Shown here: piece after piece, positions 5,624 to 31,866 of the stretch
How the letters are laid out: each line of letters opens with the position of its first letter
How positions within the stretch are numbered: the first letter of the stretch is position 1
DNA from: a virus
Reading direction: 5' to 3' (one strand)
Virus record (IMG/VR): IMGVR_UViG_3300008450_000250
Coordinates: 1 to 31,866 of that record
Length of the DNA: 31,866 bases
Program-made: the position numbers and the translations under genes
The notes under the pieces: generated by a model
The model's database searches: none
Told to the model about the DNA's origin: nothing
What the model saw: the letters and a program-made list of their open reading frames with translations, nothing else

Positions 5624-5964
5624 GATAAATCGCCTTTATTGTCTTTTGCCCATTGAACTGCTGCTTTACATTCCTTAGGAACATTTTGTTTCCTAATATT
5701 ATTTACCTGTTCTGTTAGAATAGCTACAATCTCTAATCGCTTTTGTTCGGACAATGCAAAAGATTTTTCAGCTTCAAGCACAGCTTTTTCATACACTGCT
5801 ACTTTAGCGTCAAGGTCTTCCTTATCTTCTTCACATTTGGCTAATGAGGTTTGAAGCAGGTTAATTTGCTCTGATTTAGAACTGATTACAGCGCCTGAAG
5901 CAATTAGCATTGTAAGGACAATAGCGAGTGCTATTTCTTTCCAATAAGTTATTAGTGCTATCAT
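5608..5964 (-). CDS. Rz: Inner-membrane spanin (Rz-like)
   Basis: This 118-residue protein starts at the ATG at 5964, which has GGAGG six bases upstream. A longer frame exists but would overlap the preceding gene by over 150 nt. A single N-terminal transmembrane helix (about 10-28: EIALAIVLTMLIASGAVI) is followed by a long Glu/Lys/Leu coiled coil. The end (VPKECKAAVQWAKDNKGDL) closely resembles Rz-type C-termini. With the overlapping o-spanin it forms the periplasm-spanning complex that disrupts the outer membrane. It starts one base after the stop of the upstream membrane-protein gene. Confidence 0.88.
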   Translation of the reverse strand: MIALITYWKEIALAIVLTMLIASGAVISSKSEQINLLQTSLAKCEEDKEDLDAKVAVYEKAVLEAEKSFALSEQKRLEIVAILTEQVNNIRKQNVPKECKAAVQWAKDNKGDLSWSKK

Positions 5965-6364: not shown

Positions 6365-6792
6365 CTTGACCATACTCCTAATTCTACTTCTGTCGTCCAC
6401 AGTCCATGACAAATATATGAAGCGTGGACGTGAATTTTATTTCCAGTTGGTTGAATAGCCCATAGTCCTAAGTTTTGATAACCCACTGGGTGTTTAACAG
6501 AACCGATGCCATCGTCAATCATCCATATTGAACCTTTCTTAGGAAGACCTGTGCCATTATCAACCAAAACACGTAAGTCATTTAGAGAGCAATTCCTAAC
6601 TAGATTTCCCTTAGTCTGGAAAATCATTTTGTCTTTATCTTGACTTACCATTTCGATAGTAAAGTCTTTAATTACAGGGAAATATTTCCCGTCGACCCAT
6701 GGTCCGAATGTGAACACGAATACAAATAGAACCAGCATGATTCCAAAGTTTATAATTGTAGTCACAGATGATTTTATCTGCTTACTTAGCAT
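6361..6792 (-). CDS. Membrane-anchored protein with exported beta domain (lysis cassette, unknown function)
   Basis: The start at 6792 has AGGAG eight bases upstream and overlaps the previous gene by 11 nt; the product is 143 residues. One N-terminal transmembrane helix (about 13-32: INFGIMLVLFVFVFTFGPW) is followed by a roughly 105-residue, beta-predicted domain that should lie in the periplasm. That domain has just two cysteines (in VRNCSLND and SYICHGLW), placed to form one disulfide. It lies between two small membrane proteins and just before the spanins. It is not recognised. It might modulate holin timing or act in superinfection exclusion, but nothing in the sequence decides this. Confidence 0.7.
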   Translation of the reverse strand: MLSKQIKSSVTTIINFGIMLVLFVFVFTFGPWVDGKYFPVIKDFTIEMVSQDKDKMIFQTKGNLVRNCSLNDLRVLVDNGTGLPKKGSIWMIDDGIGSVKHPVGYQNLGLWAIQPTGNKIHVHASYICHGLWTTEVELGVWSR

Positions 6793-7378: not shown

Positions 7379-7920
7379 CACTGAGGTCCCCAAGGGTCAG
7401 ATTCAGTTCCTGTTCCCTTAACTAATAATGCATTAACCGCTTCAATGTTTGCGTCGACTTTACCTGGTAAAGTAAAAGTGAGACCAGCAATTTTAGCCAT
7501 TTCCATAGCGAGTTCTTCTCTAACAGCTGCTGCAATCTCCTCAGCAGACGGACCACTTGAGCCCGAAGTTGCGATACCTTGAGCCTGCACTGGTACTGTA
7601 AATTGGATTGATACATTAAAGTTCCCTATAGTTCGAACAACTGGGACTCCACCTCCGAGAACAGAAATATTACCCGTGATAATAAGGGTCTGTTCCTGTT
7701 CCATAGGGCGTAATCTCCAACCATTCATTAGAAAGAAGTATGATGCAACGTACAAATCATTTCCAAGTGGGTCTCCACCTATAACTGAAAAGGCTTGAGG
7801 CCACTTGGAATTATCTGAGATTTGCACCCACTCTTTCCATCTCGAGTAGACTTCCTTAACTTCTACGTTTGTAGAGTCAAGTATAATCCGCTTATTGATT
7901 GGGTCGAATGTGAGTGCCAT
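7378..7920 (-). CDS. Putative minor virion / fibre-associated protein
   Basis: The 180-residue protein has a beta-rich N-terminal domain (MALTFDPINKRIILDS, then VYSRWKEWVQISDNSKW). Then comes a Ser/Gly linker at about 120, a short amphipathic helix with AEEIAAAVREELAMEMAKI (about 127-145), and a tail ending GTGTESDPWGPQ. The helix phrase 'EIAxAVRxEL' is common near the C-terminus of phage minor structural proteins. The neighbours (7933-12703) are beta-rich appendage proteins, and GAGGAAAG precedes the start. Function is inferred as part of a virion appendage; the exact family is unknown. Confidence 0.6.
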   Translation of the reverse strand: MALTFDPINKRIILDSTNVEVKEVYSRWKEWVQISDNSKWPQAFSVIGGDPLGNDLYVASYFFLMNGWRLRPMEQEQTLIITGNISVLGGGVPVVRTIGNFNVSIQFTVPVQAQGIATSGSSGPSAEEIAAAVREELAMEMAKIAGLTFTLPGKVDANIEAVNALLVKGTGTESDPWGPQ

Positions 7921-7932
7921 TTCTTTCCTCTA

Positions 7933-9288
7933 TTATACAGGGTTGCTGTAGTTACGTTCTTGAGCTGGTGATAACAAGATTGACTGTCCTTGTGCACGAG
8001 CGATAGATGTTTCAACTTCAACATACTGTCCACCTATAAGTCCAATACCGAGTGCTCTAACTGCTGGCGTTGTTCCAGGAGTGCGACCACCCTGTGTATT
8101 TGTATCATACGCAAATGAGAATGCAACTGGAGAACCAGCGTATGTACCAGTGATAGGAACACCATCTTTATCATTTACAATAATCGCATTGTCCGTTCCA
8201 AAATTACCAGAAGGAGTTGTCTCAAAGAACAACCAGTATTTAAAGTCACCCGAGCCTGCATTAGCACCAAAAGAAATAGTACCAGCTGCAACGAATGGGT
8301 AAAGACGCTTAACACCGTTTTTGTCATACAATTCAACAGCATTCAAGAAGTTAGAATTCAAATTGTCAATTGCAAGACCGATTGCACCTACTAATGTATC
8401 ACCAACAAATGATGTAAGAGCATCAGCAGTAGCACCAGTAACTGTGCCAGCTCCAGAGTCAATGTCTGAGTTCTGACGTAGCAAGTATTGAAGCTTCTCA
8501 TAGATTTGCTGAGTAGTCGCAGTTCCAGCAGAGTCAGTTACGATGATACGGAATGGTTCAGTTCCACCACCATCAATGTCCCTCAATTGGTCTGTTGTAA
8601 AGTACTCAACAGAGATATTAGTCCAAGGAGCAGTCGTTGAAATAGTTGCATCATCTGTACTAATCTTCAAGTCTGTCGTGTTAGACAATGGGAAACGGTA
8701 CGTGATGTATGATAATGCTACAGCACCAATTGCGGTGTTGTTAGACTGCGAAAATGTTTTACCTTGTTCACGTACATAGATAGTAAACGTATCTCCACCA
8801 TCTGTGTAGTCAAAATTTCCATTTGACGTATCACCGTAAATTTGTACTGCCTGATTTACTGGACCAGCGTATGCAAATGTTGCTTTAGAACCAGTATTCC
8901 AACGGAAATAAGGTTGGTCAGCGCCACCAATTGAACCTAAGGATACGACACCCATGTACTTACGCAATACTGTACCAGATGAGTTCTTTTCAGCCCATCC
9001 AGCTGTGCGAATAAGATTACGTGTCGTGTCATCTTTTGGCTTCCATCCAGATACAAATTCAAACTGTTCTGGTGTGATAGCTTCCATAGGGAATGGATAC
9101 TTAATGAATGTTGCTGATGTCTTCCATTGTTCTTTTAGCCATGAATACAATGCCTGTCCAGATACACCGCCAGTAGAACCAGCATTAGTGACAGAGCCTG
9201 TAGTCTTAATTTCAATTGTCTTTGCAGTAGTGTCAATAACAATGTCAGTTGTTAGTACAAGGTTGTCTGGGTCGATTATAATTGCCAT
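7933..9288 (-). CDS. Putative appendage/fibre protein with shared RNYxNPV C-terminus
   Basis: This 451-residue protein is beta-rich and Gly/Thr/Ser-rich. It opens MAIIIDPDNLVLTTDIVIDT, similar in style to the next gene's MALTFDPINKRIILDS. A central region has FRWNTGSKATFAYAGPVNQA and a YLLRQNSDID segment. The last 16 residues (SILLSPAQERNYSNPV) match the end of the 859-residue protein at 9480-12059 in spacing and in SIL, RNY and NPV. It follows a 59-codon gene with a two-base gap, and GAGGAG lies before the start. A virion decoration, whisker or fibre role is inferred. Confidence 0.6.
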   Translation of the reverse strand: MAIIIDPDNLVLTTDIVIDTTAKTIEIKTTGSVTNAGSTGGVSGQALYSWLKEQWKTSATFIKYPFPMEAITPEQFEFVSGWKPKDDTTRNLIRTAGWAEKNSSGTVLRKYMGVVSLGSIGGADQPYFRWNTGSKATFAYAGPVNQAVQIYGDTSNGNFDYTDGGDTFTIYVREQGKTFSQSNNTAIGAVALSYITYRFPLSNTTDLKISTDDATISTTAPWTNISVEYFTTDQLRDIDGGGTEPFRIIVTDSAGTATTQQIYEKLQYLLRQNSDIDSGAGTVTGATADALTSFVGDTLVGAIGLAIDNLNSNFLNAVELYDKNGVKRLYPFVAAGTISFGANAGSGDFKYWLFFETTPSGNFGTDNAIIVNDKDGVPITGTYAGSPVAFSFAYDTNTQGGRTPGTTPAVRALGIGLIGGQYVEVETSIARAQGQSILLSPAQERNYSNPV

Positions 9289-9290
9289 TT

Positions 9291-9470
9291 TTACTCCTCT
9301 AATTCAATCTGATAATTCGGGTTGGAAAGTAGTACATTTTTATTGTCAAGACGGTTAATTGACTGTACTACGAATTCGAAATCCCCAAGCATTACAGATT
9401 GACCTTTGCTTGGGAGTACTTCTATATTTACATTTAAATTACGACCGTCGGTGCTTTTTACAATTTTCAT
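9291..9470 (-). CDS. Small conserved-looking gene between appendage genes
   Basis: An ATG at 9470 with AGGAG five bases upstream opens a 59-residue frame ending in TAA at 9291. It starts nine bases after the 859-residue protein's stop and ends two bases before the 451-residue protein's start, so it fills the gap exactly. The protein starts MKIVKSTDGRNLNVNIEVLP, has GDFEFVVQSINRL in the middle and ends QIELEE, suggesting a small beta-barrel or beta-sandwich. No family is recognised. Position suggests a connector, chaperone or accessory for the flanking appendage proteins. Confidence 0.75.
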   Translation of the reverse strand: MKIVKSTDGRNLNVNIEVLPSKGQSVMLGDFEFVVQSINRLDNKNVLLSNPNYQIELEE

Positions 9471-9479
9471 TTTAACTCC

Positions 9480-12059
9480 TTATACTGGGTTAACATAGTT
9501 TCTATCAACTACTTGCTGGATTAAGATACTGTCATCAACCGCCTTAAAAGTATAAGGTAAGTATATCGGTTGGTAGCCCATAGCAAATATAGCTATGTAA
9601 CCGTTCTGTCCAGCATTATCGTGTGTAATACTAAATGTAGAACCTGATGTAGATTCAACACCGCCAATCTCAACAGAAGTTGCAGGGTCTGTCCCAGTAT
9701 AGATTCTTACTTCTGAACCAGTAACAAGATTCGTAAATCCTAAATTTACCGTGTCTAATGGATACAGATTGTCAGTTTGAGCTGTAGATGTTGATACAGT
9801 GGCTATTTTAATAGTATAAAGAGCATTTGTGGTAGAAGCTGTAGCGCAAACAATTTTAATTTTTAACTTGAATCCTATAGAAGCATCAACACTTTCTGAA
9901 GATAAATTTGAAGCATTTAATGTTTTCCAAGTACCATTCCAACCACTTCCTACATCTATTTGATACGTATATGTTAGATTACCAGTGTTCGTTCCAGATA
10001 GAGTTGGTGCTGTATTTGCTAATGCGGTGTGGCCTTTAGTAAAATATGGCATCTCAATAGTGTACGTGTCATTTATTGACTTCATGCGTATATATCCATC
10101 ACCAGACAAACCAGATGATGCAGCAAGAGATGTTGTCACATAAGGAGCGGTTTTTGACGATACATCATTAAAGAACAAGTAAACAAATCCCGCAGTGCTA
10201 GACGTAAATGAATCTAACCAATGAGAGCCTAGAGTATTAGCATGTGTAGTTGCTGCCGATGTAATACCACAAGCTCTTACTGTCAAATCAGTACCATTTA
10301 CAGTACCTGTACTATTCATAGTACCGTATACATGTTCCATTAGCACGTCAGTCGTAGCGTAATCTGATATGCTAGCTATACCATTACGTGTACCATTCAA
10401 ATATACTCTTTGGACTTTTATGTTACTATCATTTGCTATTGATGTTAGTACTACCAAAGGATAATTTGCAGAGTTAGTATTTGTTACTAATGGAGAAGCA
10501 CGGGTGCCAATATTTCTAACTCGTATATTGTTTGAACCACCAGATGTAGATACAATAGAACCGTAATTAGCGCAATTAGAAATTTCACCATTATTACCAA
10601 ATGTCAATCCATTTATTAAAATGTTTGAACTTGTTGATATGTCAAATAACTGCCCGCTAGTACCTGTTGTCATGTCACCATTCGTTCTATCAATATAATC
10701 TACTGAATTTAATTCTAATCCATTACATACTGAAAGTCCAATTCTTCCTCCCCAAAACTTACAATTATTAACTACACCAGAAGTATTATCAAATACAGCA
10801 GCACTCGTAGATGAGGTTGCTTTGCTGAAGACCAAACAGAATTTATTATTTGACACAGAAATATTTGTAGCGTAGGATGGAGAGAAACAGGTAGTATTAC
10901 CAGTAGCCACAAACACTGAGTCTGTACATGTGAATCCTTTTTTAACGTTAGATAATGCTAAGACATTCTGTAATAGAGTTGTCACAGCAGACACTGCAAT
11001 TCTTGTTAGCGTTATAGGTTGTTTTGCCCCAGTAAAAGACAGTCGCGAATCAAATATACTGTCTGTTAAATTAACAACTCCTGGTGTAGTAGCAGCAACA
11101 TACTGGTCAGACATTATCTTTGACGCATTATATGAGCCGCCATTTGTGAAAGAGAATTGTGGTCTTACTGAATTTGTGGCAGATGGTGCTGCGTTTGATG
11201 CGCGAGCAGCTGTAGTACATTGCCTGAACATTACGTTAGGTATTCTGATTTTGCATCCAGATGCTGGTAAATAGCCAATATTACTTGTTCCATCACTGCC
11301 TATGCGCACTTGTCCACTTCCAAGATTTTGAACAAATTTTGCGCGTGCATCTGTAGCAAGAGCATTTGTGGCCCATCCAGTTGCATTTAAAGCCGGATAC
11401 CATTCATAGACATCTGACCCTGGCGATGTCTCTACTTGAATACCCAGTAAAGTAGTACCTGCGCCACCACCATTTGTAGGAGCCTGAAGTATTTGTCCTC
11501 TTGAACCAGAAGCATTGTCTAGATAGAACCATTCTCCATATGCCTCGAACCCACTACCGAGTGCGGAATTAGTGAAGTATGTACTTTGGTCTAATACTAT
11601 TTCCATCCAACCAGTTACGTCTGTAGATGTTGCATTAGCGCTAATACCGGTCAATGCGCCTACAGAGAATGCTCCGCCGGAGACTTCACGAAATTTTAAA
11701 TATCCTGTCGCCGGCATAGCACCACCAACTGCAATAGGAGCGCTAACATAATCAGCCCATACACCTAAAAGATATCCAGACACTCCACCTTGTGTAATAG
11801 TTGTGCCAATTGCTGGAACTGTCCCAGAACCTGTGTCGAATGGCATCCATCTTACATTTCTTCCTTCAACAAAAAAACCTCCACCTAAAGATGCTGAAAT
11901 AGTTGTGGCACCTAAAGAACCGGTCATAGATGCAGGCGAATTGGCGTGCCATCTAGTATCTGTGCGAATTGTAAGTTTAGCTCCGTTAATTGTCCAAGTT
12001 TCACCAGCGGTACGAGCAGTTCCGCCATCTAAAAACGTATCTACGGTTATTGTTGCCAT
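9480..12059 (-). CDS. Large beta-rich appendage / tailspike-like virion protein
   Basis: This 859-residue protein opens MATITVDTFLDGGTARTAGE, and its middle (about 270-600) is dense in short strands with Asn, Ser, Thr and Val. It includes IKVQRVYLNG- and NILINGLTFGN-like turns, which suggests a parallel beta-helix such as in tailspikes. A C-terminal globular part holds GSEVRIYTGTDPATSVEIGG and GYIAIFAMGYQPIYLPY, ending SILIQQVVDRNYVNPV. That terminal peptide recurs on the 451-residue protein. The start is preceded by AAGGAT. It probably binds or modifies a host-surface glycan as a head or neck appendage, but no catalytic residues can be assigned by eye. Confidence 0.65.
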   Translation of the reverse strand: MATITVDTFLDGGTARTAGETWTINGAKLTIRTDTRWHANSPASMTGSLGATTISASLGGGFFVEGRNVRWMPFDTGSGTVPAIGTTITQGGVSGYLLGVWADYVSAPIAVGGAMPATGYLKFREVSGGAFSVGALTGISANATSTDVTGWMEIVLDQSTYFTNSALGSGFEAYGEWFYLDNASGSRGQILQAPTNGGGAGTTLLGIQVETSPGSDVYEWYPALNATGWATNALATDARAKFVQNLGSGQVRIGSDGTSNIGYLPASGCKIRIPNVMFRQCTTAARASNAAPSATNSVRPQFSFTNGGSYNASKIMSDQYVAATTPGVVNLTDSIFDSRLSFTGAKQPITLTRIAVSAVTTLLQNVLALSNVKKGFTCTDSVFVATGNTTCFSPSYATNISVSNNKFCLVFSKATSSTSAAVFDNTSGVVNNCKFWGGRIGLSVCNGLELNSVDYIDRTNGDMTTGTSGQLFDISTSSNILINGLTFGNNGEISNCANYGSIVSTSGGSNNIRVRNIGTRASPLVTNTNSANYPLVVLTSIANDSNIKVQRVYLNGTRNGIASISDYATTDVLMEHVYGTMNSTGTVNGTDLTVRACGITSAATTHANTLGSHWLDSFTSSTAGFVYLFFNDVSSKTAPYVTTSLAASSGLSGDGYIRMKSINDTYTIEMPYFTKGHTALANTAPTLSGTNTGNLTYTYQIDVGSGWNGTWKTLNASNLSSESVDASIGFKLKIKIVCATASTTNALYTIKIATVSTSTAQTDNLYPLDTVNLGFTNLVTGSEVRIYTGTDPATSVEIGGVESTSGSTFSITHDNAGQNGYIAIFAMGYQPIYLPYTFKAVDDSILIQQVVDRNYVNPV

Positions 12060-13997: not shown

Positions 13998-14921
13998 TTA
14001 AGCTGCGTTTGCACCAACTGAAGAGCTAGTAACACCAACGAATGCTGCATCAGTATCGATGATACCATACTTAGCAACTGTGTACCAACCGACATTTGCG
14101 AAACGACCAAGTGCATCGAATGGACCTGTTACGCGGATAGACATGTCTTGTGAAACAGCTTTACCAAGAGCATTTGAACCCAAGAACAAACCACGGTATG
14201 CATCAACAGTACCAGCGCCAGATTGGTCACCAAATACGATGTTGTTGTCGCGCAAGATACGGAAGCCTTTAAACATACCGACTTCGTTCATCAAAGCTTC
14301 ACCAGGCAAAGCGTACTTAGTTACATCAACCCATGAACCAGCGTCTGTAGAAGCACGCAAATCGTGAATTTGGTCATCATGCAAAACAGCTACATAAGTA
14401 CCGTTAATCATTGGAACACTGTTACGTGCCAATTTGTTGTACATCTTGTTCAAGAACGATGCCGACATAACGTCACCAGCAGCAAGAGCGGCTTCAGAAC
14501 CCGCACCAGCAAAGATTTCATTACCATTGTTCAATGCCAAGATAGCAAGCTTGTCCATAGTTTGACCAGCGTTGATACCTACGATTTGAGCAGCAGCCAA
14601 GTCCGCTTTACCACCAGATTGTAGAGAAGCAAGGTTAGTAGTAGTAACTACATTACCGTATTCTGCTGGAGTAAGCAAGATTTGTGTGTCTGACATTGCA
14701 GAACGAGTTACATCTTCGTCTTCTGTCAAAGGTGTAGTAGCAAGTGCAAGACGTGCATACTTTGTTAATTGAATGGACTTAGCACCGATGCTAACGTTGG
14801 TTTGTGCCAACTGGTCCATAACGTTGTTTTGTCCGTTTGCAATCAAGAAAGATTGTTCGAACGCAAGTACTAAACTGTCGTCTAATTGAGTAGTACCGGT
14901 CATATTAGCTACGAATGGCAT
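13998..14921 (-). CDS. Major capsid protein (HK97 fold, N4 gp56-like type)
   Basis: This 307-residue protein forms the icosahedral shell. It opens MPFVANMTGTTQLDDSLVLA with the helical N-arm LAFEQSFLIANGQNNVMDQL. It continues with IQLTKYARLALATTPLTEDEDVT and the AEYGNVVTTTNLASLQSG region, a pattern I associate with the N4-gp56 family. The LHDDQIHDLRAS segment followed by GEALMNEVGMFKGFRILRDNN is typical of the P-domain to A-domain region in this group. It lies directly after the scaffold and before a strong terminator, and AAGGAG precedes the start. Confidence 0.9.
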   Translation of the reverse strand: MPFVANMTGTTQLDDSLVLAFEQSFLIANGQNNVMDQLAQTNVSIGAKSIQLTKYARLALATTPLTEDEDVTRSAMSDTQILLTPAEYGNVVTTTNLASLQSGGKADLAAAQIVGINAGQTMDKLAILALNNGNEIFAGAGSEAALAAGDVMSASFLNKMYNKLARNSVPMINGTYVAVLHDDQIHDLRASTDAGSWVDVTKYALPGEALMNEVGMFKGFRILRDNNIVFGDQSGAGTVDAYRGLFLGSNALGKAVSQDMSIRVTGPFDALGRFANVGWYTVAKYGIIDTDAAFVGVTSSSVGANAA

Positions 14922-17578: not shown

Positions 17579-18853
17579 TTATAATGTCCTTAAAGTGGTT
17601 CTACCCTGTACAGGGAAAGCGTAATGAATATAGTAACCGCCGGCATCTAATGGATGGTCAACATTATTCGATTTGTCAGGTTCGCCCTTTATCCAAGCTT
17701 GCCGTTCAAGAGATTTAGTGTATTGTTTGCACGTATGTGTATTTACTTTATATCTTCGTTCTCCGTTACTATTACAGAACATAGCATTCATACTGTTGAT
17801 GCGGTCACCTACGGCAGGATTGGCGCCATTTACCATTAGTTTGAAACCGAATTCGCGAAGAATTGCATGTGATGTGTCTATACCAGCAGCATTTCTGTTC
17901 TTACCAGATGCATCGGGATAAACGTAAATCGATGTGTTAGGATATTTGCGGACTATCTCCCTACACATTGCTCTTGTATCTTTTAGTCCGCAAATCTCAT
18001 CGACAGCATAAGGAGCACCATCTTTACTAATATGAACTATTGCTGCCATATTGTCAACGTTAAAGTCCATACCAATATGTAGGGGTGCTCCACGAGGATT
18101 GTCTGCTACAGTGTAGTTAGTATGATTTTCGAATCTGTCAAAATCTTGGTAAACGATTGAAGTGTATATGTTTGCAAATTGCCCATTAATGTAGGCAGAG
18201 TGCTTTGACTTAGGAATGTTAGCAAGACGTGATGCGATATAATTCTTAGGAAGCAAGAAGTTATCGGTCATCTTCACATGCCAAATCTTTGTCATCTCAG
18301 ACGCCTCTTCTACAAATCGTCTATGCATGAAAGCAAAACCTTCTGGGGTACTTACCGCAAATTGAATGGCATTAGGAGCTTCTGACAAACGATTACCTAA
18401 TTCTGTGAAAGCATTATATCCAATCTCAGCATTGCGGCATAAGTCTGCTTCGTCCATTCCACCCCAAGCAAGAGACATACCATTCATACGAGTGTAGTTC
18501 TCAGCTGAAACATTTAACCAAATACGTGACATCTTTTTACCAATTTTGAATTCAATGTAGTCTACATAATTGTTGTTCAACCGTTCAGCATCATATTCTA
18601 AGCCAGTCGTAGGCAATATGCGCTTTAAGATAGGAACTATATTTCGTTGATTCATACCAGCAATTGGACTAATGATGACACCATGTTCACCAGGAAATAC
18701 TTCAGTAGCGCAACGAAGAGCTTTCCACGTTAATGCTTCTGACTTCCCAGAGCGGTACCCACCAACAAATCCTTGTATAGGCGTTTTGTCGTCCATGACA
18801 AATTCGACTTGATGAGGCATAAGTCTAGGCCGTAATTGAAGTATTTTACTCAT
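17579..18853 (-). CDS. terL: Terminase large subunit
   Basis: The 424-residue motor packages DNA into the procapsid and cuts it. The ATPase part has Walker A GGYRSGKS (31-38), Walker B ending GGMDEAD (131-137) and coupling motif STP (168-170). The nuclease part has the acidic residues Asp263 (GMDFN), Asp314 (YPDASG) and Asp399/Asp403 (NVDHPLDAGGYY), as in RNase H-fold terminase nucleases. Its ATG overlaps the terS stop by TAATG. The length is normal for the smaller terminases. Confidence 0.97.
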   Translation of the reverse strand: MSKILQLRPRLMPHQVEFVMDDKTPIQGFVGGYRSGKSEALTWKALRCATEVFPGEHGVIISPIAGMNQRNIVPILKRILPTTGLEYDAERLNNNYVDYIEFKIGKKMSRIWLNVSAENYTRMNGMSLAWGGMDEADLCRNAEIGYNAFTELGNRLSEAPNAIQFAVSTPEGFAFMHRRFVEEASEMTKIWHVKMTDNFLLPKNYIASRLANIPKSKHSAYINGQFANIYTSIVYQDFDRFENHTNYTVADNPRGAPLHIGMDFNVDNMAAIVHISKDGAPYAVDEICGLKDTRAMCREIVRKYPNTSIYVYPDASGKNRNAAGIDTSHAILREFGFKLMVNGANPAVGDRINSMNAMFCNSNGERRYKVNTHTCKQYTKSLERQAWIKGEPDKSNNVDHPLDAGGYYIHYAFPVQGRTTLRTL

Positions 18854-19296
18854 TATTCTTCGTCAGGTCTTTCAATTATGATTGGTTGTGACTCGACTTT
18901 GTCATAGGCAATTGCACCTTCATGGACAATAGTTTGTTTGGAGCCCATACCTTCATATTTCTTAGCGTGTAGTTCGATTGCTTTTAGGAGTGTATTAACA
19001 GGAATGTCAGAGCGGGCAAATTGACCAGGCTCTAAAGAGGCGAAATCGTCAAGGATTCTATTGAGTAGCATTCGAGGTTTTTGCATTGCAGAATTCTTTC
19101 CTTCACGGAAAGCTTCGCCATGTAGTGCTTCTAGGGTTTGACTAGTAACATTAAAGTACTTACAAATTTCCTCGAAAGTGTAGTAATGTCGCGCTAAATC
19201 ACATACAGACTCATCTGTCATAGCTTTAGGCTTATAGGTACTCTGATTGGCAACTTTTACAGTAGTTCTCAAGTCTTTAGGTGTTTCATCTTTCAT
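18853..19296 (-). CDS. terS: Terminase small subunit
   Basis: This 147-residue protein probably recognises phage DNA and loads the large subunit. It has an N-terminal helix-turn-helix (about 29-62), in which YTFEEICKYFNVTSQTLEAL reads as helix, turn, recognition helix. A helical oligomerisation region follows (LLNRILDDFASLE, LLKAIELHAKKYEGMG). The end is acidic (IERPDEE). The terL gene overlaps its stop. It lies behind a terminator and a TATAAATA box, so it appears to open the late packaging/head operon. Confidence 0.88.
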   Translation of the reverse strand: MKDETPKDLRTTVKVANQSTYKPKAMTDESVCDLARHYYTFEEICKYFNVTSQTLEALHGEAFREGKNSAMQKPRMLLNRILDDFASLEPGQFARSDIPVNTLLKAIELHAKKYEGMGSKQTIVHEGAIAYDKVESQPIIIERPDEE

Positions 19297-19348: not shown

Positions 19349-19356
19349 TATTTATA
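19349..19356 (-). promoter_or_regulatory. T4-late-like promoter box TATAAATA upstream of terS
   Basis: The minus strand reads TTTTATAAATATACC 53 bases before the terS start. It sits just past the terminator of the upstream gene, where a fresh promoter is needed. The bases 17 upstream (CTCCTT) do not resemble a -35 element. This supports a phage-specific late promoter recognising an extended -10 alone. Confidence 0.55.
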
Positions 19357-19874: not shown

Positions 19875-20243
19875 TCAGAAGTCTTCTGACTGCTTATTTA
19901 GGAGCATAGTGTTAGAAGAAGTATGCAAAAGTACTGTATTGGTACCGTTTATATTCAGGAAGTCAACAAAGCCGTTAACTAAAGCAGATGGATTAGGACA
20001 AAGGGGTATTAATAAAGGTGCTTTGAATTTCTTCTTATAATGATGTCCAGTTGTTAAATTAAAACGTCGTAGCCATTTAACAGTTTCAGCGTGTCCTGAT
20101 TTATTGACTACACTCAGGATGAAGAAGTCATGATTGGGGTATTGTATGGACAATGCGGTGATGTTTGGATGAGTAGATTGAAGGACATGGACGGGAATTC
20201 CATTTTTGAATATACCGATTACTAAGATAGGATTAGTCATCAT
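19875..20243 (-). CDS. Unknown small protein
   Basis: The 122-residue protein opens MMTNPILVIGIFKNGIPVHV and contains PNHDFFILSVVNKSGHAETVKW and KKKFKAPLLIPLCPNPSALVN. The hydrophobic strands are spaced like a small alpha/beta domain; there is no signal peptide. Two adjacent ATG codons (20243 and 20240) follow GGAG. The second gives the better spacing. The gene contains one copy of the 17-nt repeat (20139-20155) in coding sequence. The stop overlaps the palindrome GTCAGAAGACTTCTGAC. Function unknown. Confidence 0.6.
   Translation of the reverse strand: MMTNPILVIGIFKNGIPVHVLQSTHPNITALSIQYPNHDFFILSVVNKSGHAETVKWLRRFNLTTGHHYKKKFKAPLLIPLCPNPSALVNGFVDFLNINGTNTVLLHTSSNTMLLNKQSEDF
20139..20155 (+). 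repeat. 17-nt repeat copy 1 (plus orientation, inside a gene)
   Basis: GTATTGTATGGACAATG, followed by CG. It is identical to the copies at 20405, 20726 and 20751 (core 17 nt). This one lies in the minus-strand gene at 19875-20243, where it encodes part of ALSIQYPN. Confidence 0.8.
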
Positions 20244-20404
20244 ATTACTCCATCTAGATTTGTAATATTATTTAAGTGAATATTTCTTTTTGTCCATCAA
20301 GTGGTACTCTTTTGCGTGAAAAGTTCTTAGTGCTTTGAGTAGTTGCTGAGTGAGACTGTTATGAAGCAATGGTTTTTACTTCTATTTGAAGCGAAGGAAT
20401 TTTT

Positions 20405-20421
20405 GTATTGTATGGACAATG
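20405..20421 (+). repeat. 17-nt repeat copy 2 (plus orientation, intergenic)
   Basis: GTATTGTATGGACAATG followed by CG, as in copy 1. It lies just downstream (minus-strand sense) of the terminator at 20436-20462. On the plus strand its ATG would open a 12-codon frame ending at a TAA inside the terminator stem, with only a distant AAGGA upstream, so a coding role is doubtful. Confidence 0.8.
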
Positions 20422-20435
20422 CGAATATCCGGAGC

Positions 20436-20462
20436 AAAAAGAAGCCCTAAATTAATAGGGCT
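20436..20462 (-). terminator. Intrinsic terminator after the 65-residue gene
   Basis: AGCCCTA and TAGGGCT (20443-20449 with 20456-20462) form a 7-bp stem with a 6-nt loop, followed on the minus strand by TTCTTTTT. It closes the transcript of the small-gene cluster starting near 22921. Confidence 0.8.
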
Positions 20463-20465
20463 AAA

Positions 20466-20487
20466 GAGTTGTCATGTCAAACAACTC
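20466..20487 (-). other. Hairpin upstream of the terminator
   Basis: GAGTTGT and ACAACTC form a 7-bp stem with an 8-nt loop, immediately before the intrinsic terminator in the direction of transcription. It could protect the mRNA 3' end or be processed. Confidence 0.5.
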
Positions 20488-20537
20488 GGAGATTACAACA
20501 AAAACTATTAAGTCTGTATTTATTATGGCTATTAATC

Positions 20538-20735
20538 TTATTTGTTTTTCTTTTTGCGATTGTCTACACCACGTACTTCTAAACACATGTTCAGGAAATT
20601 GATTGCATCTTGTGGATTTTCTGTGACTTTATCTAATAAAGCTTGAATTGATGCTCTTGAAAGGGCGAACCGAGTATATCCGTCTGCTGCTGTCGTACAT
20701 TTACAGTAATCTGCTAATAATTTTACATTGTCCAT
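20538..20735 (-). CDS. Small unknown protein with start codon inside the 17-nt repeat
   Basis: Translation is placed at the ATG at 20735, six bases after AAAAGGTG, giving 65 residues: MDNVKLLADYCKCTTAADGY, then RFALSRASIQALLDKVTENP, ending in a basic KKKNK. It is helical and has three cysteines. The ATG lies in the loop of an AUUGU/ACAAU hairpin formed by the repeat. A second, tandem copy of the repeat with its own ATG is 25 bases upstream in another frame. Translation may be regulated by this element. Function unknown. Confidence 0.6.
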   Translation of the reverse strand: MDNVKLLADYCKCTTAADGYTRFALSRASIQALLDKVTENPQDAINFLNMCLEVRGVDNRKKKNK

Positions 20736-20742
20736 ACAATAC
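20721..20742 (-). repeat. Tandem 22-nt repeat, copy 3 (contains a start codon)
   Basis: On the minus strand GTATTGTATGGACAATGTAAAA, identical over 22 nt to 20746-20767, with the three bases GGT between. The shared 17-nt core matches copies 1 and 2. Its ATG is the start of the 65-residue gene. Confidence 0.85.
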
Positions 20743-20745
20743 ACC

Positions 20746-20767
20746 TTTTACATTGTCCATACAATAC
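20746..20767 (-). repeat. Tandem 22-nt repeat, copy 4
   Basis: Same 22 nt as 20721-20742, with a period of 25 bases. It contributes the AAAAGG part of the ribosome site of the 65-residue gene. It directly follows the 12-bp hairpin at 20768-20800 in the direction of transcription. Confidence 0.85.
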
Positions 20768-20800
20768 GCACAGGTAGTTTTTGTTATTAACTACCTGTGC
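20768..20800 (-). other. 12-bp hairpin without U-tract
   Basis: GCACAGGTAGTT pairs perfectly with AACTACCTGTGC around a 9-nt loop. It lies between the stop of the 79-residue gene and the tandem repeats. No T-run follows on either strand, so it is not a standard intrinsic terminator. It may be an mRNA processing or stability element, or an operator. Confidence 0.65.
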
Positions 20801-21059: not shown

Positions 21060-21971
21060 CTAGTATAATGGTTTTGTTGCTGCTTTGTATTTTAAGACTA
21101 ATTCTTTGGCTTTAAGTCTGATAGCTTGTTCGCTTAATTTAAGCTGTTTTTCTAATTCTTTTACTTGATTTACCCTTACTTTTTGTTCTTTAGCAAGTCT
21201 GTCAGCTTGTTTCCTTTGTTGTTCTGTTGTAATTTCACCAGATTCACGTTGGTCAACATATTTTCTATTTTCTTGAATTTTAAGTTGAGTATATTTTTGA
21301 TGCTTTAAAATAACTGCGTCATAAGTCTTTTTGCATTGCTCATTGTAATCAGCTAATTTTCTGTATTCTTTATCTAATTCATAAAATGCAACTGTTACTT
21401 TTTGAGAATATCTTTCAAAGAAAGCTTTATTGTAAAGCTGCTTAGGTTGATAAGTGCTAAGAATTCTTTCTTCTTCAGCTTTCAGTTCTTCTGGAGTAGA
21501 ATCCGGCATTGACTTCAGAATTTCCATATAGAATGAATCTACTCCATATTTTTCAACATCATTCTTAAGAGTCAAATTACCAAAGTAAACATTGCTACAA
21601 CCAAATTTCCAGTAATTTTTTAACCAATAATGATGAACTGCTCTTCTTAAGTCTGGTCTTTTTGAAGAGCCAATATACATCCGGTTTGTTTTACGATTAA
21701 TAATTGCGTATACAGAAGGAGTTTGAATATATTTCCACCCATTCATAATAGATTTAGGACTAATAGTCATTCCCATCTCAGCAATACCGTATTCATTTTT
21801 AACTCTAACTTCTTTCCATCCGGTCATTTTCTTTAATCTGTATCTATTAGAAATAGTGTTTTCTAATCCAGCTTTTTCGAGAGCAGCTTTTAGCATTAAT
21901 CTACCGTTATCATCTGTCTTTAATCGTTTGTACGCTGTACAAAATTGTTTGTCAATAGTTTTAGTTGTCAT
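21060..21971 (-). CDS. GIY-YIG endonuclease, probably free-standing homing type
   Basis: This 303-residue protein has a GIY-YIG core at about 86-182. The two motif strands read SVYAIINRKTNRMYIGSS (86-103), with VYA and MYIG in place of GIY and YIG. Arg105/Arg109 follow, a Glu lies in EEERILSTY (about 166-174) as the metal ligand candidate, and NKAF ends the domain. A DNA-contact region of about 80 residues precedes the core, and a long Lys/Glu/Gln coiled coil (about 200-300) follows it. Such enzymes cut related DNA to spread their own gene. No intron is evident here, so it looks free-standing. It is preceded by a GAGG-type site. Confidence 0.75.
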   Translation of the reverse strand: MTTKTIDKQFCTAYKRLKTDDNGRLMLKAALEKAGLENTISNRYRLKKMTGWKEVRVKNEYGIAEMGMTISPKSIMNGWKYIQTPSVYAIINRKTNRMYIGSSKRPDLRRAVHHYWLKNYWKFGCSNVYFGNLTLKNDVEKYGVDSFYMEILKSMPDSTPEELKAEEERILSTYQPKQLYNKAFFERYSQKVTVAFYELDKEYRKLADYNEQCKKTYDAVILKHQKYTQLKIQENRKYVDQRESGEITTEQQRKQADRLAKEQKVRVNQVKELEKQLKLSEQAIRLKAKELVLKYKAATKPLY

Positions 21972-22993: not shown

Positions 22994-23365
22994 ATGACTT
23001 ATAACTTCAGAAGTAAATTTGAGCAGAACTTTTACAAGAGATTGCCTAAAGAATCAGTCACGTATGAATCAGAAGTTCTGAAGTACATTGTTCCTGAAAC
23101 TCCTCACAAATACACACCTGACTTCCACATCCCAAATACAAACATTTACCTTGAATTAAAAGGCAGATTGACCGCAGCTGACAGGAAGAAAATGTTGCTA
23201 GTATTAGAGCAGCATGCTGATAAGCGCATCATTATGGTATTTCAGAACGCAAAACTGCCCATAGTCAAAGGAAGTAAAACAACCTATGCTCTATGGGCAG
23301 AAAAGAACGGGGTTGAATGGATGACCCCGTTAGATGCTGAAGAATTAATTAAACGAAACTTGTAG
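22994..23365 (+). CDS. Holliday-junction resolvase, T7 endonuclease I-like
   Basis: The 123-residue enzyme cuts branched DNA during recombination and packaging. The sequence follows T7 endonuclease I: Glu10 in the first helix, YESEVLKYIVP, YTPDFHIPN with Asp43, and YLELKG with Glu54 and Lys56. The 33, 11 and 2 residue spacings are close to those of the T7 catalytic set. The C-terminal YALWAEKNGVEW aligns with T7's 'SYGEFCEKHGIKF'. It is slightly shorter than the T7 protein (149 residues). It is the only plus-strand gene, with AAGGA before its start. It overlaps the end of the convergent fibre gene by 17 nt and encodes that gene's terminators on its opposite strand. Confidence 0.9.
   Translation: MTYNFRSKFEQNFYKRLPKESVTYESEVLKYIVPETPHKYTPDFHIPNTNIYLELKGRLTAADRKKMLLVLEQHADKRIIMVFQNAKLPIVKGSKTTYALWAEKNGVEWMTPLDAEELIKRNL
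23251..23300 (-). terminator. Terminator-like hairpin 2, antisense in the endonuclease gene
   Basis: CTGCCCATAG (23255-23264) pairs with CTATGGGCAG (23291-23300) in a perfect 10-bp stem with a 26-nt loop, followed on the minus strand by TTTT. It is the second of two hairpins downstream of the fibre stop. The large loop lowers confidence. Confidence 0.45.
23301..23331 (-). terminator. Terminator-like hairpin 1, antisense in the endonuclease gene
   Basis: AACGGGGT and ACCCCGTT (23306-23313 with 23324-23331) form an 8-bp stem with a 10-nt loop, followed on the minus strand by CTTTT. It lies 18 bases past the stop of the fibre gene at 23349 and inside the endonuclease coding sequence. Confidence 0.6.
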
Positions 23366-25382
23366 CGCTTAATAGAGATAATCTATTGTTTGCAGTTGCT
23401 ACATATCTACGAACATATACTGTAGATGAGCTTCCATTAAATGACGGATTTCCAAAAAATGTAAATGAGTTTGACGTAGGGGTGCCAACCGCAGAAGTAA
23501 AATTCATAATAACAGTGTAAATTGTTCCTATTACTAAACCTGTTCCAGTGATATTTAGAGTTACCGTGGCGGCTGAAGCTAAATTATTAGCAGAGATAAC
23601 GTAAGTAGTAGACTCAGAACCATTTACATTAAATGTAGAAGTCACACCACCTGTATTAAGCGTCTCAGGTAATACAGCTTGAGTAGCTGTATATGTATTT
23701 GGTTGATTCAATACTGCAGTATTTACTATGCTAGATAAGAATCCACCTGCATCAACAGTCATAGTAACATTATCTGGCTTCATAATGCCACGTGTAGTTG
23801 ATGTAGCTATAGGAGCATACAATTGCCCACTTCCATTAATTTTTATAGTTGCATTATCCGGTTTAATTGTACCGTATGCGCTTATAGTAGCTATTGGGTA
23901 AATTGCACTTAACAATCCACCAGATGCAGTTGTAGTAATACCATCCGGTTTAACAATACCATACTTAGTTGTTGTTGCTTTAACTGCAGATAAAACACCA
24001 CCAGATGCAGATACTGTAACATTATCCGGCTTTACTATACCAAAAGCGCTAGATGATGCTGCAGGTACAGATAAAACACCAGATGCATTGACTGTCATAG
24101 TAGTATTATCTGGTCTAACTACACCGACTGTTGAGGAAGTAGCTGTAACATAATTTGCCTTAAGAACGCCACCAGTAATAGTTATAGTGATATTGTCCGG
24201 CTTTGATAAACCGTATATAGTTGCAGATGCTGTCGGGACGGACAATATGCCACTAGAAATAGTAATAGATGTATTGTCCGGTTTAACAGCTCCAAGTGAT
24301 GAACTTGTTGCTGTAGGAATAACAGCCTTAAGTAATCCACTATCAATAATAATTGTGCTATTATCTGGTTTTACTAAACCGTAATTTGTTACAGTAGCAT
24401 TTACACCTGACAATACCCCACCAGCACCAACTGTAATGGTTGTGTTGTCCGGTTGAACCCAACCAGCACTAGAAGCAGTCGCAAGTGTAGAAGTCGCAGA
24501 TAAAACACCAGATGCATTGACTGTCATAGTAGTATTATCCGGTCTAGATACACCTAATACTGAACTTGTTGCCGTAGGAATACTAGCAGACAATATACCA
24601 CCAGCAGCAACAGTTATTGTTGTGTTGTCTGGTTTTACTACACCAGCGATAGAAGATGTTGCCGGTGCTGCACTTTGCGCAGAAATTACACCATTAGAAA
24701 TAGTAATAGATGTATTGTCCGGTTTTACTATACCTACTGTCGATGAAGTTGCAGTAGGTATAGACAATACACCATTAGAATCTACTGTGCTAGTAGTTCC
24801 ATTTGGCCGCAATACACCTGTTGAAGAGTTAGTTGCTAATGGATATGTTGCTGTCAGAACACCAGCATTAACAGTTACGTTTGTTCCATTAGGTTTAATC
24901 AATCCATAAACCGAATTTGTTGCTAGTGGTACAGACAAAACACCAGAACCGTCTACAAATGTAGTAACATTGTCTGGCTTAGTTATACCAGAAGTTGTAG
25001 ACGTTGCTGTAGGTAATACTGCGGTTAGAACGCCAGAACCATCGACTGTTATAGTAGTATTGTCTGGTCTTGTAGTTCCAGTAACAGATGAAGTTGCAAC
25101 AGGAACTACTGCAGAAATTACACCACTAGAAATAGTAATCGATGTATTGTCTGGCTTAACCGCACCAAAAGATGAGGTTGTTGCTTTTGGATAAGCACCA
25201 TCTACTGCATTAGAAGTAGCTGAAGTAATGCGACCTTTAGCATCAACCGTGAATGAAGGGAACGAATAGGCCCCAGGCGTAACGGCGGTGTTAGTTAATT
25301 GTGGCGCTAGACCGTCATTGCTGCCCGCCAAATCTCCTGCCAATTTGATTGAACCAAGAGCTGAATTTGTTGCTGTAGTCAT
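23349..25382 (-). CDS. Repeat-built tail fibre A
   Basis: This 677-residue fibre has an N-terminal region with VTPGAYSFPSFTVDAKGRIT (about 35-54), a signature seen in many phage fibres. A shaft follows with 17 copies of a unit of about 29-30 residues, centred on (K/R)PDNTTITV, a short gap, G(V/I)LSA and ATSST. The C-terminal 120 residues (from NTAVLNQPNTYTATQAVLPE) differ from the shaft and should be the receptor-binding tip. Several repeat units are nearly identical at the DNA level, so the array can probably expand or shrink. It is paralogous to the fibre encoded four bases upstream. GGATT precedes the start. Confidence 0.85.
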   Translation of the reverse strand: MTTATNSALGSIKLAGDLAGSNDGLAPQLTNTAVTPGAYSFPSFTVDAKGRITSATSNAVDGAYPKATTSSFGAVKPDNTSITISSGVISAVVPVATSSVTGTTRPDNTTITVDGSGVLTAVLPTATSTTSGITKPDNVTTFVDGSGVLSVPLATNSVYGLIKPNGTNVTVNAGVLTATYPLATNSSTGVLRPNGTTSTVDSNGVLSIPTATSSTVGIVKPDNTSITISNGVISAQSAAPATSSIAGVVKPDNTTITVAAGGILSASIPTATSSVLGVSRPDNTTMTVNASGVLSATSTLATASSAGWVQPDNTTITVGAGGVLSGVNATVTNYGLVKPDNSTIIIDSGLLKAVIPTATSSSLGAVKPDNTSITISSGILSVPTASATIYGLSKPDNITITITGGVLKANYVTATSSTVGVVRPDNTTMTVNASGVLSVPAASSSAFGIVKPDNVTVSASGGVLSAVKATTTKYGIVKPDGITTTASGGLLSAIYPIATISAYGTIKPDNATIKINGSGQLYAPIATSTTRGIMKPDNVTMTVDAGGFLSSIVNTAVLNQPNTYTATQAVLPETLNTGGVTSTFNVNGSESTTYVISANNLASAATVTLNITGTGLVIGTIYTVIMNFTSAVGTPTSNSFTFFGNPSFNGSSSTVYVRRYVATANNRLSLLSATSFV
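23740..25180 (-). repeat. DNA-level tandem repeats of the fibre A shaft
   Basis: Roughly 80-90-base units encode the (K/R)PDN repeats. Two segments (about 24072-24115 and 24501-24544) are nearly identical over more than 40 bases. A GAAATAGTAAT-GATGTATTGTC unit recurs near 24255, 24697 and 25127. Recent duplication or recombination within the array is indicated. Confidence 0.75.
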
Positions 25383-25385
25383 ATA

Positions 25386-27542
25386 TTAAATCCTTATACC
25401 AGAATATGCTATTTTATTTACTTGGACACCAAATGGTAATCCGCCTATATCCACTATTACTATCTCAATAACTGAAAATCCACTACTATCAGAATCAACC
25501 GTTATAGGAGTACTACTATTTGCACTAAAGAATCCACCAAAACCCGTTGTTGAGGAAGTGCTAAATGTTATTGTGCACCCTGCATCTTCTTGACAAAGTA
25601 AAGTCAATGCTGTACCTACTACGAATGTTGAATTTACAAAACCATCTACATTAAGAGTACCAGAAGTTCCCTTAATAATAAAAATATTAGAAGAATTTGT
25701 CCCGGATACATCTAATAATTTCGTACTTGTCCCAGAGATTGTTCTAGGCGATACTGTCTGAGGATCAGGCATTGCATTAAAACTGTCCAAACTTACAGAA
25801 GTATCGCTTATCTCGCCAAGATATAAGCTTAAATTTTTACTTAATGGATTGATACCGACTAACCCCGTGTCAGATGTTGTAGCATATCTAACGTGATTAT
25901 TACTTGTGAATGTGTTATGAATAATTGTATTGTCAAGTTTAACAAAACCATTTACACTTGTAGTAGATTCTGTAAGTATCGTCGACAATATGCCGTCGTC
26001 ATCACATGTGATAGTCACATTATCTGGTTTAACAGCTCCAAAAACTGAATTTGAAGCATTTATTAAATTGATAACACCGCCTGATGCTGCTATCGATGTA
26101 TTATCCGGCTTAACTATACCAATAGTGCTCTCTACTCCTATAATTTGAAAAGGACTGTCAGGGGCATAGATATTGGTGCTTGTTGACTTATTTGCTGTTA
26201 ATACACCGTCGGAAATAGCAATTGACGTATTGTCTGGCTTTACTAATCCCAATGTTGCCGCTGTTGCAAATGTTTCTGGAAGTGCATGTGATAATACACC
26301 TGAATTTACAAGAATAGTATCAGCATCCGGTTTTACTAATCCTAAAGTTGTATTACTTGCATTAGGAACGGATAAAACGCCAACAGTATTAAGAACACTG
26401 CTATTGTCACCCCTAGCTGCACCTAAAATGGTGCTAGTAGCTGTTATAAAAGAAGAAAATTGTAATTTTCCATCGACTATTTTAATAGATGAATTGTCTG
26501 GTTTAACAACACCATATAATGACGGGGTTGAACTTTGAAGAGATAATATGCCTAAATTAATCTTAACGGTCAAGTCATCCGGTTTTGCTAATCCAGGATA
26601 TGAACTTCTGGCAGTTTTTACAGATAATACCTCAGAATTAATTTCTACTGTGGTGTCATCAGGCCGTATTAAACCTTTAGTTGTTGATGTTGCTTTTGCT
26701 AAGCTTAATGTACCTTCACTACCAACATTCAGTGTGTTTTCGTCGGCTTTAACAATACCAACAGTACTAGAAGTCGCATAGACTACAGGAACACTAATGA
26801 TGCCATTTTGAATAGTTATACTAGTATTATCTGGTCGAACAATACCCTTGCCCAATGAATTTGCCTGCGCCGGATGTAATATGCCAGAAGTATTAATCGA
26901 ACAAGTTTCATTATCAGCTTGAAGAATACCAACAGAACTATTAGTAGCAATAGCCAATCCTAATTTTCCATCATATAATTTCAATGAAACATTATCTGGT
27001 TTAGCAATACCGAAATTAGTAGTTGATGTTATGTACGTAGATACTGCGCCACCTATACCACTGTAAGTAGTTACATTGTCATACTTCACCCCACCTAATA
27101 TTGTCGAAGTCGCCTTCGGAACAATAAAAGTTAATACACCGTTAGTGTCAACGAATATGGTTAAATTGTCCGGTCTAACTTTACCTAACGTTGTTGATGT
27201 TGCTAACGGTATTGAAGCTCCAGAAAAACTAATTACACCATCAGATACTGTAACTGAAGTTCCGTCAACTTTAACAATACCAAAAGTTGACGATGTTGCC
27301 ACCACAGATGTTATGGTGTAATTTTCTGATTTCGCATAGGTAATTCTCCCTTTCGGGTCAATTACAGTGTTGGTGATTGTGATGATAGAATTACCTTCCC
27401 CATCAACCCCAACAGCCTGATAATTGTAAGCACCTGGAGTTACACCAGATCCACGAAGCAAAGGCATTTCACCTGTAGATGTAGGGTCTAAATCCCCAGC
27501 AATTAGGATATCGCCTTCTGTTGTATTTGTTGCTATAGCCAT
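25386..27542 (-). CDS. Repeat-built tail fibre B
   Basis: The 718-residue fibre has the same plan as fibre A: N-terminal ATNTTEGDILIAGDL and VTPGAYNYQAVGVD, VIDPKGRITYA, then about 16 more diverged copies of the (K/R)xDN unit. It has its own C-terminal domain of about 170 residues (from GEISDTSVSLDSFNAMPDP). The end (GLPFGVQVNKIAYSGIRI) does not resemble that of fibre A, so the pair may recognise different receptors or form a hetero-fibre. Repeat units here are less alike than in fibre A, suggesting an older copy. AAGGAAAAAT precedes the start. Confidence 0.85.
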   Translation of the reverse strand: MAIATNTTEGDILIAGDLDPTSTGEMPLLRGSGVTPGAYNYQAVGVDGEGNSIITITNTVIDPKGRITYAKSENYTITSVVATSSTFGIVKVDGTSVTVSDGVISFSGASIPLATSTTLGKVRPDNLTIFVDTNGVLTFIVPKATSTILGGVKYDNVTTYSGIGGAVSTYITSTTNFGIAKPDNVSLKLYDGKLGLAIATNSSVGILQADNETCSINTSGILHPAQANSLGKGIVRPDNTSITIQNGIISVPVVYATSSTVGIVKADENTLNVGSEGTLSLAKATSTTKGLIRPDDTTVEINSEVLSVKTARSSYPGLAKPDDLTVKINLGILSLQSSTPSLYGVVKPDNSSIKIVDGKLQFSSFITATSTILGAARGDNSSVLNTVGVLSVPNASNTTLGLVKPDADTILVNSGVLSHALPETFATAATLGLVKPDNTSIAISDGVLTANKSTSTNIYAPDSPFQIIGVESTIGIVKPDNTSIAASGGVINLINASNSVFGAVKPDNVTITCDDDGILSTILTESTTSVNGFVKLDNTIIHNTFTSNNHVRYATTSDTGLVGINPLSKNLSLYLGEISDTSVSLDSFNAMPDPQTVSPRTISGTSTKLLDVSGTNSSNIFIIKGTSGTLNVDGFVNSTFVVGTALTLLCQEDAGCTITFSTSSTTGFGGFFSANSSTPITVDSDSSGFSVIEIVIVDIGGLPFGVQVNKIAYSGIRI

Positions 27543-30653: not shown

Positions 30654-31866
30654 ATTTGGTCGCCTTTATAATGCTGAACACCGGTAGAGATAGCCATTAA
30701 ACCGCCGTAAGATTTGTTAATAGCACCCATGTATATTCCAGGGAATCTAGCGCAACCAATATTGCCGCCTACATACACAAATATTAAATGCGCTGGTACT
30801 TTAACATTCGTGAATGCGCCATCAGTATAATATTGATATGTGAATTCTGGGGTGTATGCAACGCTTCTTACAGTATTATCATAGAATCTAAATTTGCCAC
30901 CTTTACGTGTCTCTTTATTGTAGTAAACCGCAACACTGTCTCCACCTTCTGTTTTTACTTCCCAGACAGTTGCTCCGGCATCGTATCTATTTAAGGCATC
31001 TGGGTGAACTTTGAACCATTCGTAGTCAGGAATAATAGTAGTTCCTGTTAACAACGCCCAGTAATAATTTCTAGTAGCAGCGTTACCAATATCTTTAACC
31101 ACAAAACCAGTATCAATCTGACTGAATAATGCATTTCTAGACGATACGTAAACAAGCCCGCCATATTCGAACATTTCTTCGACATCTCTATTGACCTCGA
31201 TATATGCCACTAAAGCGCCGGAAACCAAATTGTAAACATACACGCCACGCTTATTATAAGACCCTACATAGATATTATCACCATTTATTACTAAATACCT
31301 TACCATATCTTGCTTACGCCCTGGAATTTCAGTTCTACCGACATAAGCTCCAGTAACAGCATCGTATCTATAAAGCCACTGTGTATCTGCACCTGTCTGT
31401 GTAGATGGTGCAGGTTTTACTGCCCACATGAATAAGTTTGATTGCGCATAAGGACGATTGACGGTATTAGTTATGATGCACTTTGACGAAGGAGTAAATG
31501 CATCCCCATTCTCATCTACAAAAGGTCCAGAATAATAAGTAGGTATAGTGATTGTTGCATTGCTTTTTGGATTTGAAAATGAATTAATTAACGTATAAGT
31601 CGTTAAATCATATCTAAACCATGTATCGTCAGTACAAATAACTGTCATTACGTTATATTCTGCGCGAGAGAATTGCTTAACAGTTTTTCCACTCAAAGTA
31701 AATTGCTTGAAAGTGTACATTTTGGAAAGCCCATCTGGTGCCATTATTCCCATAGTTATCTCGTCAACCGTAGGTTCAGCCCAACGAGGGTATTCATCAT
31801 TGTCAATAATAGAAGTTGTTGAATGTGGACCCCAGAAGTCAGTAACTCTTAACTCTGTATTTGCTC
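30650..31866 (-). CDS. Beta-propeller-like tail-tip or adsorption protein (partial, cut by right edge)
   Basis: At least 405 residues are visible. The frame stays open past an internal ATG at 31753 to the window edge, with coding-like sequence (LRVTDFWGPHSTTSIIDNDE upstream of it), so that ATG is probably not the start. Blade-like units recur: WFRYDLTTYTLINSF, WLYRYDAVTGAYVGRTEIPG, VYVYNLVSGALVAYIEV. The visible C-terminus is beta-rich (VPAHLIFVYVGGNIGCARFP). It is translationally coupled to the tail-tip gene. A role in receptor binding or tail-tip assembly is inferred. Confidence 0.7.
   Translation of the reverse strand, partial: ANTELRVTDFWGPHSTTSIIDNDEYPRWAEPTVDEITMGIMAPDGLSKMYTFKQFTLSGKTVKQFSRAEYNVMTVICTDDTWFRYDLTTYTLINSFSNPKSNATITIPTYYSGPFVDENGDAFTPSSKCIITNTVNRPYAQSNLFMWAVKPAPSTQTGADTQWLYRYDAVTGAYVGRTEIPGRKQDMVRYLVINGDNIYVGSYNKRGVYVYNLVSGALVAYIEVNRDVEEMFEYGGLVYVSSRNALFSQIDTGFVVKDIGNAATRNYYWALLTGTTIIPDYEWFKVHPDALNRYDAGATVWEVKTEGGDSVAVYYNKETRKGGKFRFYDNTVRSVAYTPEFTYQYYTDGAFTNVKVPAHLIFVYVGGNIGCARFPGIYMGAINKSYGGLMAISTGVQHYKGDQI

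Follow-up and report, generated by a model that had tools for sequence, protein, structure and literature searches.

A Predicted Operator Family in the Early and Lysis Genes of an Uncultured Tailed Phage, with Counterparts of Unrelated Sequence in Two Relatives

A 17-nt repeat built around the dyad ATTGT-N4-ACAAT occurs six times in the genome fragment of an uncultured tailed phage, four times among small early genes and twice in the lysis genes about 14 kb away. Its copies are predicted to be operators of a sequence-specific phage DNA-binding protein that would coordinate the early genes with lysis, a reading to which we assign a probability of roughly 0.45. Two relatives carry unrelated words at the same places, which suggests, from the sequence comparison, a control site that changes fast. 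The window analyzed is the whole 31,866-base fragment (IMG/VR record IMGVR_UViG_3300008450_000250).

Results

Genes around the repeat copies

Nearly all genes of the window lie on the minus strand. They include TerL (17579-18853), the major head protein (13998-14921), the major tail protein and the tape measure, together with a GIY-YIG homing-endonuclease-like gene (21060-21971) and a resolvase-like gene (22994-23365). A terminase-small-subunit-like gene (TerS; 18853-19296, minus strand), whose product has a helix-turn-helix-like segment, adjoins TerL and is preceded by the T4-type late-promoter-like sequence TATAAATA (19349-19356, minus strand). Small genes of poor conservation lie between terS and the fibre genes, and we call them the early region, a name given by position only. 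Here a 122-aa ORF (19875-20243, minus strand) and a 65-aa ORF (20538-20735, minus strand, within the ORF 20538-20744) are of interest. The ATG at 20735, with AAAGGTG six bases upstream, is the only plausible start of the latter. No relatives of the 122-aa, 65/68-aa and 79-aa proteins were found in IMG/VR. An intrinsic-terminator-like hairpin (20443-20462, minus strand) lies between the 65-aa ORF and repeat copy B.

In the lysis genes, an Rz1-like outer-spanin ORF (5366-5623, minus strand; 85 aa, proline-rich, with a signal peptide ending in ALVGC), named from its architecture and with homologues in the relatives G001, G003 and G004, overlaps an Rz-like inner-spanin ORF (5608-5961, minus strand). 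The spanin and TerS names rest on position, architecture and homology among these contigs. A comparison of TerL with genome_contigs returned only relatives 32-44% identical (from enterobacteria, pseudomonads and others), and therefore no host is named. Neither tRNA genes nor Rfam matches at gathering thresholds were found in the window.

Six copies of one repeat at two loci

The word GTATTGTATGGACAATG occurs exactly at 20139-20155 (plus, copy A), 20405-20421 (plus, copy B), 20726-20742 (minus, within copy C) and 20751-20767 (minus, within copy D), the four places listed in an earlier note on this DNA. Copies C (20721-20742) and D (20746-20767, 25 nt upstream of C) are 22-nt tandem units, identical over their whole length as the note had it, and the 25-nt period puts the AUG of the upstream unit out of frame with the 65-aa ORF, also as described. 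Copy C contains the ATG at 20735. Copy A has 19 nt in common with B and does fall in coding sequence, as claimed, inside the 122-aa ORF but antisense to it. Copy B is non-coding, just past the terminator-like hairpin and upstream of the 122-aa ORF, and 19 nt of it (20402-20420) are identical to copy E in the lysis genes.

The description of the repeat as four local copies was incomplete. Copy E (5588-5604, minus, one mismatch) occupies signal-peptide codons 7-12 of the Rz1-like ORF, and copy F (5907-5923, plus, three mismatches with the dyad intact) lies in membrane-segment codons of the Rz-like ORF. A possible degenerate copy G (5740-5756, plus, four mismatches with TTGT-N4-ACAA intact), also inside the Rz-like ORF, is weak and may belong as well. 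Copies E and F form a 24-nt inverted repeat (88%). Since they match in antisense, convergent membrane-segment codons do not explain their likeness.

That such a number of copies could not be chance was borne out. In third-order Markov copies of the window, zero matches were expected at 0-1 mismatch, and none of 200 simulations held a 17-mer three times; a shuffle control gave 0.23 matches to the 17-mer at up to three mismatches. The 14-bp dyad was observed six times against 0.135 expected, and all six occurrences are family members, so that every copy has the perfect two-fold arms looked for in a DNA operator. No other dyad stood above simulation in the window. Copies A to D agree outside the dyad too, in an asymmetric ATGG spacer and GT/G flanks. 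A scan of IMG/VR found the exact 17-mer in ten contigs, once in each and without a match to window proteins, and from this sequence context they are treated as chance matches. A strong inverted repeat without a T-run, CACAGGTAGTT...AACTACCTGTG (20768-20799), is located directly upstream of D and C.

Two relatives have other words at the same two places

Four IMG/VR contigs with TerL 66-76% identical to that of the window were read whole: G001 (38,239 bases, near-complete because its ends overlap by 77 bases), G002 (22,901 bases, without the early region), G003 (34,682 bases) and G004 (30,318 bases). All sequences are metagenomic assemblies, and the pattern described here is seen in three phages. 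TerS is the only early-region protein common to the window, G001 and G003. The 17-mer of the window is absent from all four relatives, though they keep TerS, TerL and the spanins. The earlier note had counted relatives that keep the genes and lack the repeat as evidence against its proposal, and this came about only by half: G001 and G003 carry another repeat in the same positions.

G001 has its own 12-bp family, TGTAAGATTTAC, with four copies, and G003 has ATGTTGATACTA, with seven; both are unrelated in sequence to the window word. Copies of these families occur on both strands, in the early region upstream of the TerS gene and within the opening ~100 nt of the outer-spanin gene. G001 repeats a 55-nt stretch without change at the start of its outer spanin (31751-31805) and at an early-gene end (11430-11484), and it carries an inverted 64-nt copy (94%) immediately ahead of terS (6518-6581). 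In G003, the start of the outer spanin (26234-26277) has 44 nt in common (98%) with the homologous early gene (9812-9855), and here too an inverted copy precedes terS (11856-11901). A family copy precedes the TerS late promoter by 22 nt in G001 and by 10 nt in G003, while other copies are inside an early gene. The G001 element contains a perfect palindrome with 8-bp arms, GATTTACC-N6-GGTAAATC, present three times, and the G003 12-mer has almost no dyad symmetry.

The sense to antisense orientation relative to the genes is 3:3 in the window, 2:2 in G001 and 4:3 in G003. In each phage the 12-14 bp core of the family is also found alone, without long flanks, and outside the fibre genes the family is among the most repeated 11-12-mers in all three. 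In every one of the three phages with such a family, the lysis-gene copies fall at the outer-spanin start, within the first ~100 nt of the gene. By simple arithmetic, a random site would fall in the first 120 nt of this gene with a frequency of 0.003-0.004 per genome, a descriptive figure for a coincidence noticed post hoc. With the same places and different words in three phages, position is, as far as these sequences go, more conserved than sequence across the window, G001 and G003. The spanin copy of G001 and G003 occupies an N-terminal extension of ~20 residues that is absent from the window and G004 proteins; the window spanin has no insertion, and the codons that hold its word are ordinary signal-peptide codons. 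The lysis genes of the closest relative, G004, are without such a family, and no comparable repeat family was found in five distant relatives identified by capsid protein (MCP; G005, G006, G007, G009 and G010).

Discussion

Putative operator sites as the best explanation

Operator function is favored because of the mixed orientation, the flank-free cores, the dyads in the window and in G001, and the lineage-specific wording. The balanced orientation suits protein-DNA sites and is unlike promoters or RNA operators. From these features we infer protein binding, its regulatory effect and the identity of the protein as follows. A phage-specific protein would bind the 14-bp dyad as a dimer at two clusters of sites, one (A to D) in the early region, where it surrounds the start of the 65-aa gene and precedes the 122-aa gene, and another (E, F and perhaps G) in the spanin genes. 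Such a protein would control early transcription and restrain or time the expression of the lysis genes. In related phages the regulator and its sites would co-diverge, with places kept and the word changed. No cognate DNA-binding protein for the dyad was found among the proteins scanned. Several observations argue against operators: the agreement of A to D beyond the dyad is also expected from recent copying, the G003 12-mer departs from dyad symmetry, the closest relative is without the family in its lysis genes, and several copies are inside coding sequence, far from any recognizable promoter.

The main rival, which we regard as rather doubtful, is control at the RNA level. Sense copies C, D and E would pair with antisense copies B, A and F in the same minus-strand transcript, in helices of 17-24 bp, with C-B covering the start of the 65-aa gene and E-F the early Rz1 codons; in the relatives, the spanin mRNA would be targeted in trans by the antisense copy. 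Partition-function folding gives ~21 expected pairs for E with F (duplex -26.2 kcal/mol) and ~18 for C with B (-25.9 kcal/mol). However, such pairing in silico is expected of any inverted repeat this long, and therefore folding is not independent evidence. The spanin copies are in the first codons, where antisense control acts, and inverted copies lie just upstream of the TerS late promoter in both G001 and G003, but in these two phages the lysis transcript offers the spanin copies no antisense partner, pairing gives no obvious purpose to many of the antisense cores of 12-14 nt, and in the window the terminator-like hairpin separates C/D from B/A. A different RNA mechanism, a translational operator in which a phage RNA-binding protein binds an AUG in a hairpin loop, was among the options of the earlier note and is the weakest of them; we consider it highly improbable. 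Copy C does present the ATG at 20735 in an AUGG loop, behind a good Shine-Dalgarno sequence, and the 5-bp AUUGU/ACAAU stem exists (six pairs with U-G). Yet the isolated stem is marginal at -1.9 kcal/mol, a fold as good or better was obtained for 18 of 200 shuffles, and the minimum-energy fold in context pairs the two tandem copies together instead. Of the six copies, C alone has its AUG where a gene could plausibly start; A, B and F are antisense, E and F are within Rz1 and Rz coding sequence, and the families of the relatives show neither a hairpin nor a link to start codons. A stable hairpin at a regulated start, kept in relatives, is thus not what was found.

The copies could also be short selfish or template-copied palindromes that resemble in-frame palindromic repeats; they would multiply inside each genome, and both early genes and the spanin N-terminus would tolerate them. 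The N-terminal spanin extensions of G001 and G003 fit this, as do the near-identity of A to D beyond any dyad and the long copies, of 44-67 nt and 94-100% identity, that genes contain in different frames. We find it unlikely, as it leaves unexplained why three unrelated elements occur at the same ~100 nt of one gene; moreover, the window spanin shows no such insertion, and neither a target duplication nor a mobilizing enzyme is in evidence. Replication-origin iterons, or binding and packaging sites of the terminase (TerS), specific to each phage type, are quite improbable. Direct and inverted repeats of 12-14 bp do cluster near terS, with copies close to the TerS late promoter in G001 and G003 and others inside the early gene, and recognition residues differ in the helix-turn-helix-like segment of TerS. 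Nevertheless, the spanin cluster ~14 kb away is hard to explain in this way, the recognition-like residues TLEALHGEAF are common to the TerS of the window and of G004, which lacks the word, and no initiator-like gene was recognized in the window. The repeat may also act as a recombination site, a further option of the earlier note. The interpretation given there is thus partly supported, and the DNA operator is the best-fitting of its options, given the dyad in all six copies, their mixed orientation and the relatives' own words at the same places.

Comparison with known systems

Stoperators of Cluster A mycobacteriophages (L5, Bxb1) are dispersed short sites with a phage-specific consensus that co-diverges between related phages (PMC6550527). 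They are found at promoters or close to them but also elsewhere, and most have the same orientation with respect to transcription (PMC6550527). The multiple near-identical, phage-specific sites dispersed in one genome resemble them. However, stoperators are asymmetric and mostly in one orientation, unlike the balanced copies here, and the repressor that binds them, in temperate phages, is known. The present families have only 4-7 sites at two loci. No immunity repressor or integrase was recognized among the proteins scanned (the window being a 31.9-kb fragment).

Lambdoid repressor operators such as those of 434 have a 14-bp dyad in several local copies of mixed orientation. All of these features recur here, but the 434 half-sites (ACAA..TTGT) face opposite to those of the present dyad, and no HTH repressor gene was found. 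Iterons of lambda-type O genes are type-specific direct repeats in one tight array inside an early gene. The families described here are likewise type-specific and can sit inside an early gene, but their orientation is mixed and their copies are split over two distant loci. Rickettsia palindromic elements and prokaryotic MITE-like repeats provide in-frame palindromes in protein genes, as in the spanin extensions of G001 and G003, whereas the present elements are much shorter (17-67 nt), few in number, phage-specific in sequence and recurrent at one gene. As for the operator hairpins of MS2 type, copy C can be drawn as a small RNA hairpin at a start codon, but this is neither stable nor conserved, and the majority of copies are in antisense or lie in other genes.

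Outer-spanin genes are usually viewed as controlled simply within the lysis cassette. Tentatively, the repeats may belong to a previously undescribed circuit of this siphophage group, in which fast-diverging sites connect the first outer-spanin codons with the early region ahead of terS, the word is re-invented in each lineage, and a single factor or RNA sets the timing of lysis relative to early expression. Should each of the three related phages keep a word of its own at both places, early functions would have a dedicated connection to the last step of lysis, and its specificity would change quickly, like that of immunity systems. The window, G001 and G003 are a natural comparison set for finding the factor.

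Other features of these genomes

The homologous early proteins of G001 and G003 (L017:3497-4528 and L019:7049-8125; 343 and 358 aa, 23% identical) host core repeats in both phages. They have no Pfam match and marginal PHROG matches at best, and their motifs D-x-x-A-x-x-P-[ST], S-x-x-N-G and HDGF recall, by eye, polymerase motifs; the predicted structure of this polymerase-like protein was unusable (mean pLDDT 35.8).

G001 also has a separate family of promoter-like repeats. These early repeats, GTTACA-N7to11-TGTACA followed by a TATAAT-like box ~30 nt on, are all in the direction of transcription and occur in G004 (L020 4680-6976), G001 (7621-10100) and G002 (22882); they are absent from the window and G003. 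A phage promoter was considered for the window repeat and rejected, as its copies are on mixed strands and several are inside genes; it also fails by comparison with the promoter-like repeats of G001 and G004, all on one strand.

Octamers of the T4-type late-promoter-like form (T/G)ATAAATA are found in the window (19356, 15623 and 22928, minus strand), in G001 (6496), G003 (11911), G004 (18939) and elsewhere. All are on the coding strand. Each of the four phages in which the region upstream of terS was read has one immediately ahead of this gene, and a G003 protein matches the late sigma factor family phrog_234. In G004, a perfect 53-nt tandem duplication with a hairpin (GAATTGAGTG...CACTCAATTC; L020 8998-9103) lies upstream of terS. 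Two adjacent fibre-like genes of the window (23349-27542) contain many degenerate repeats of ~27-30 residues, and those of the relatives are repeat-rich too.
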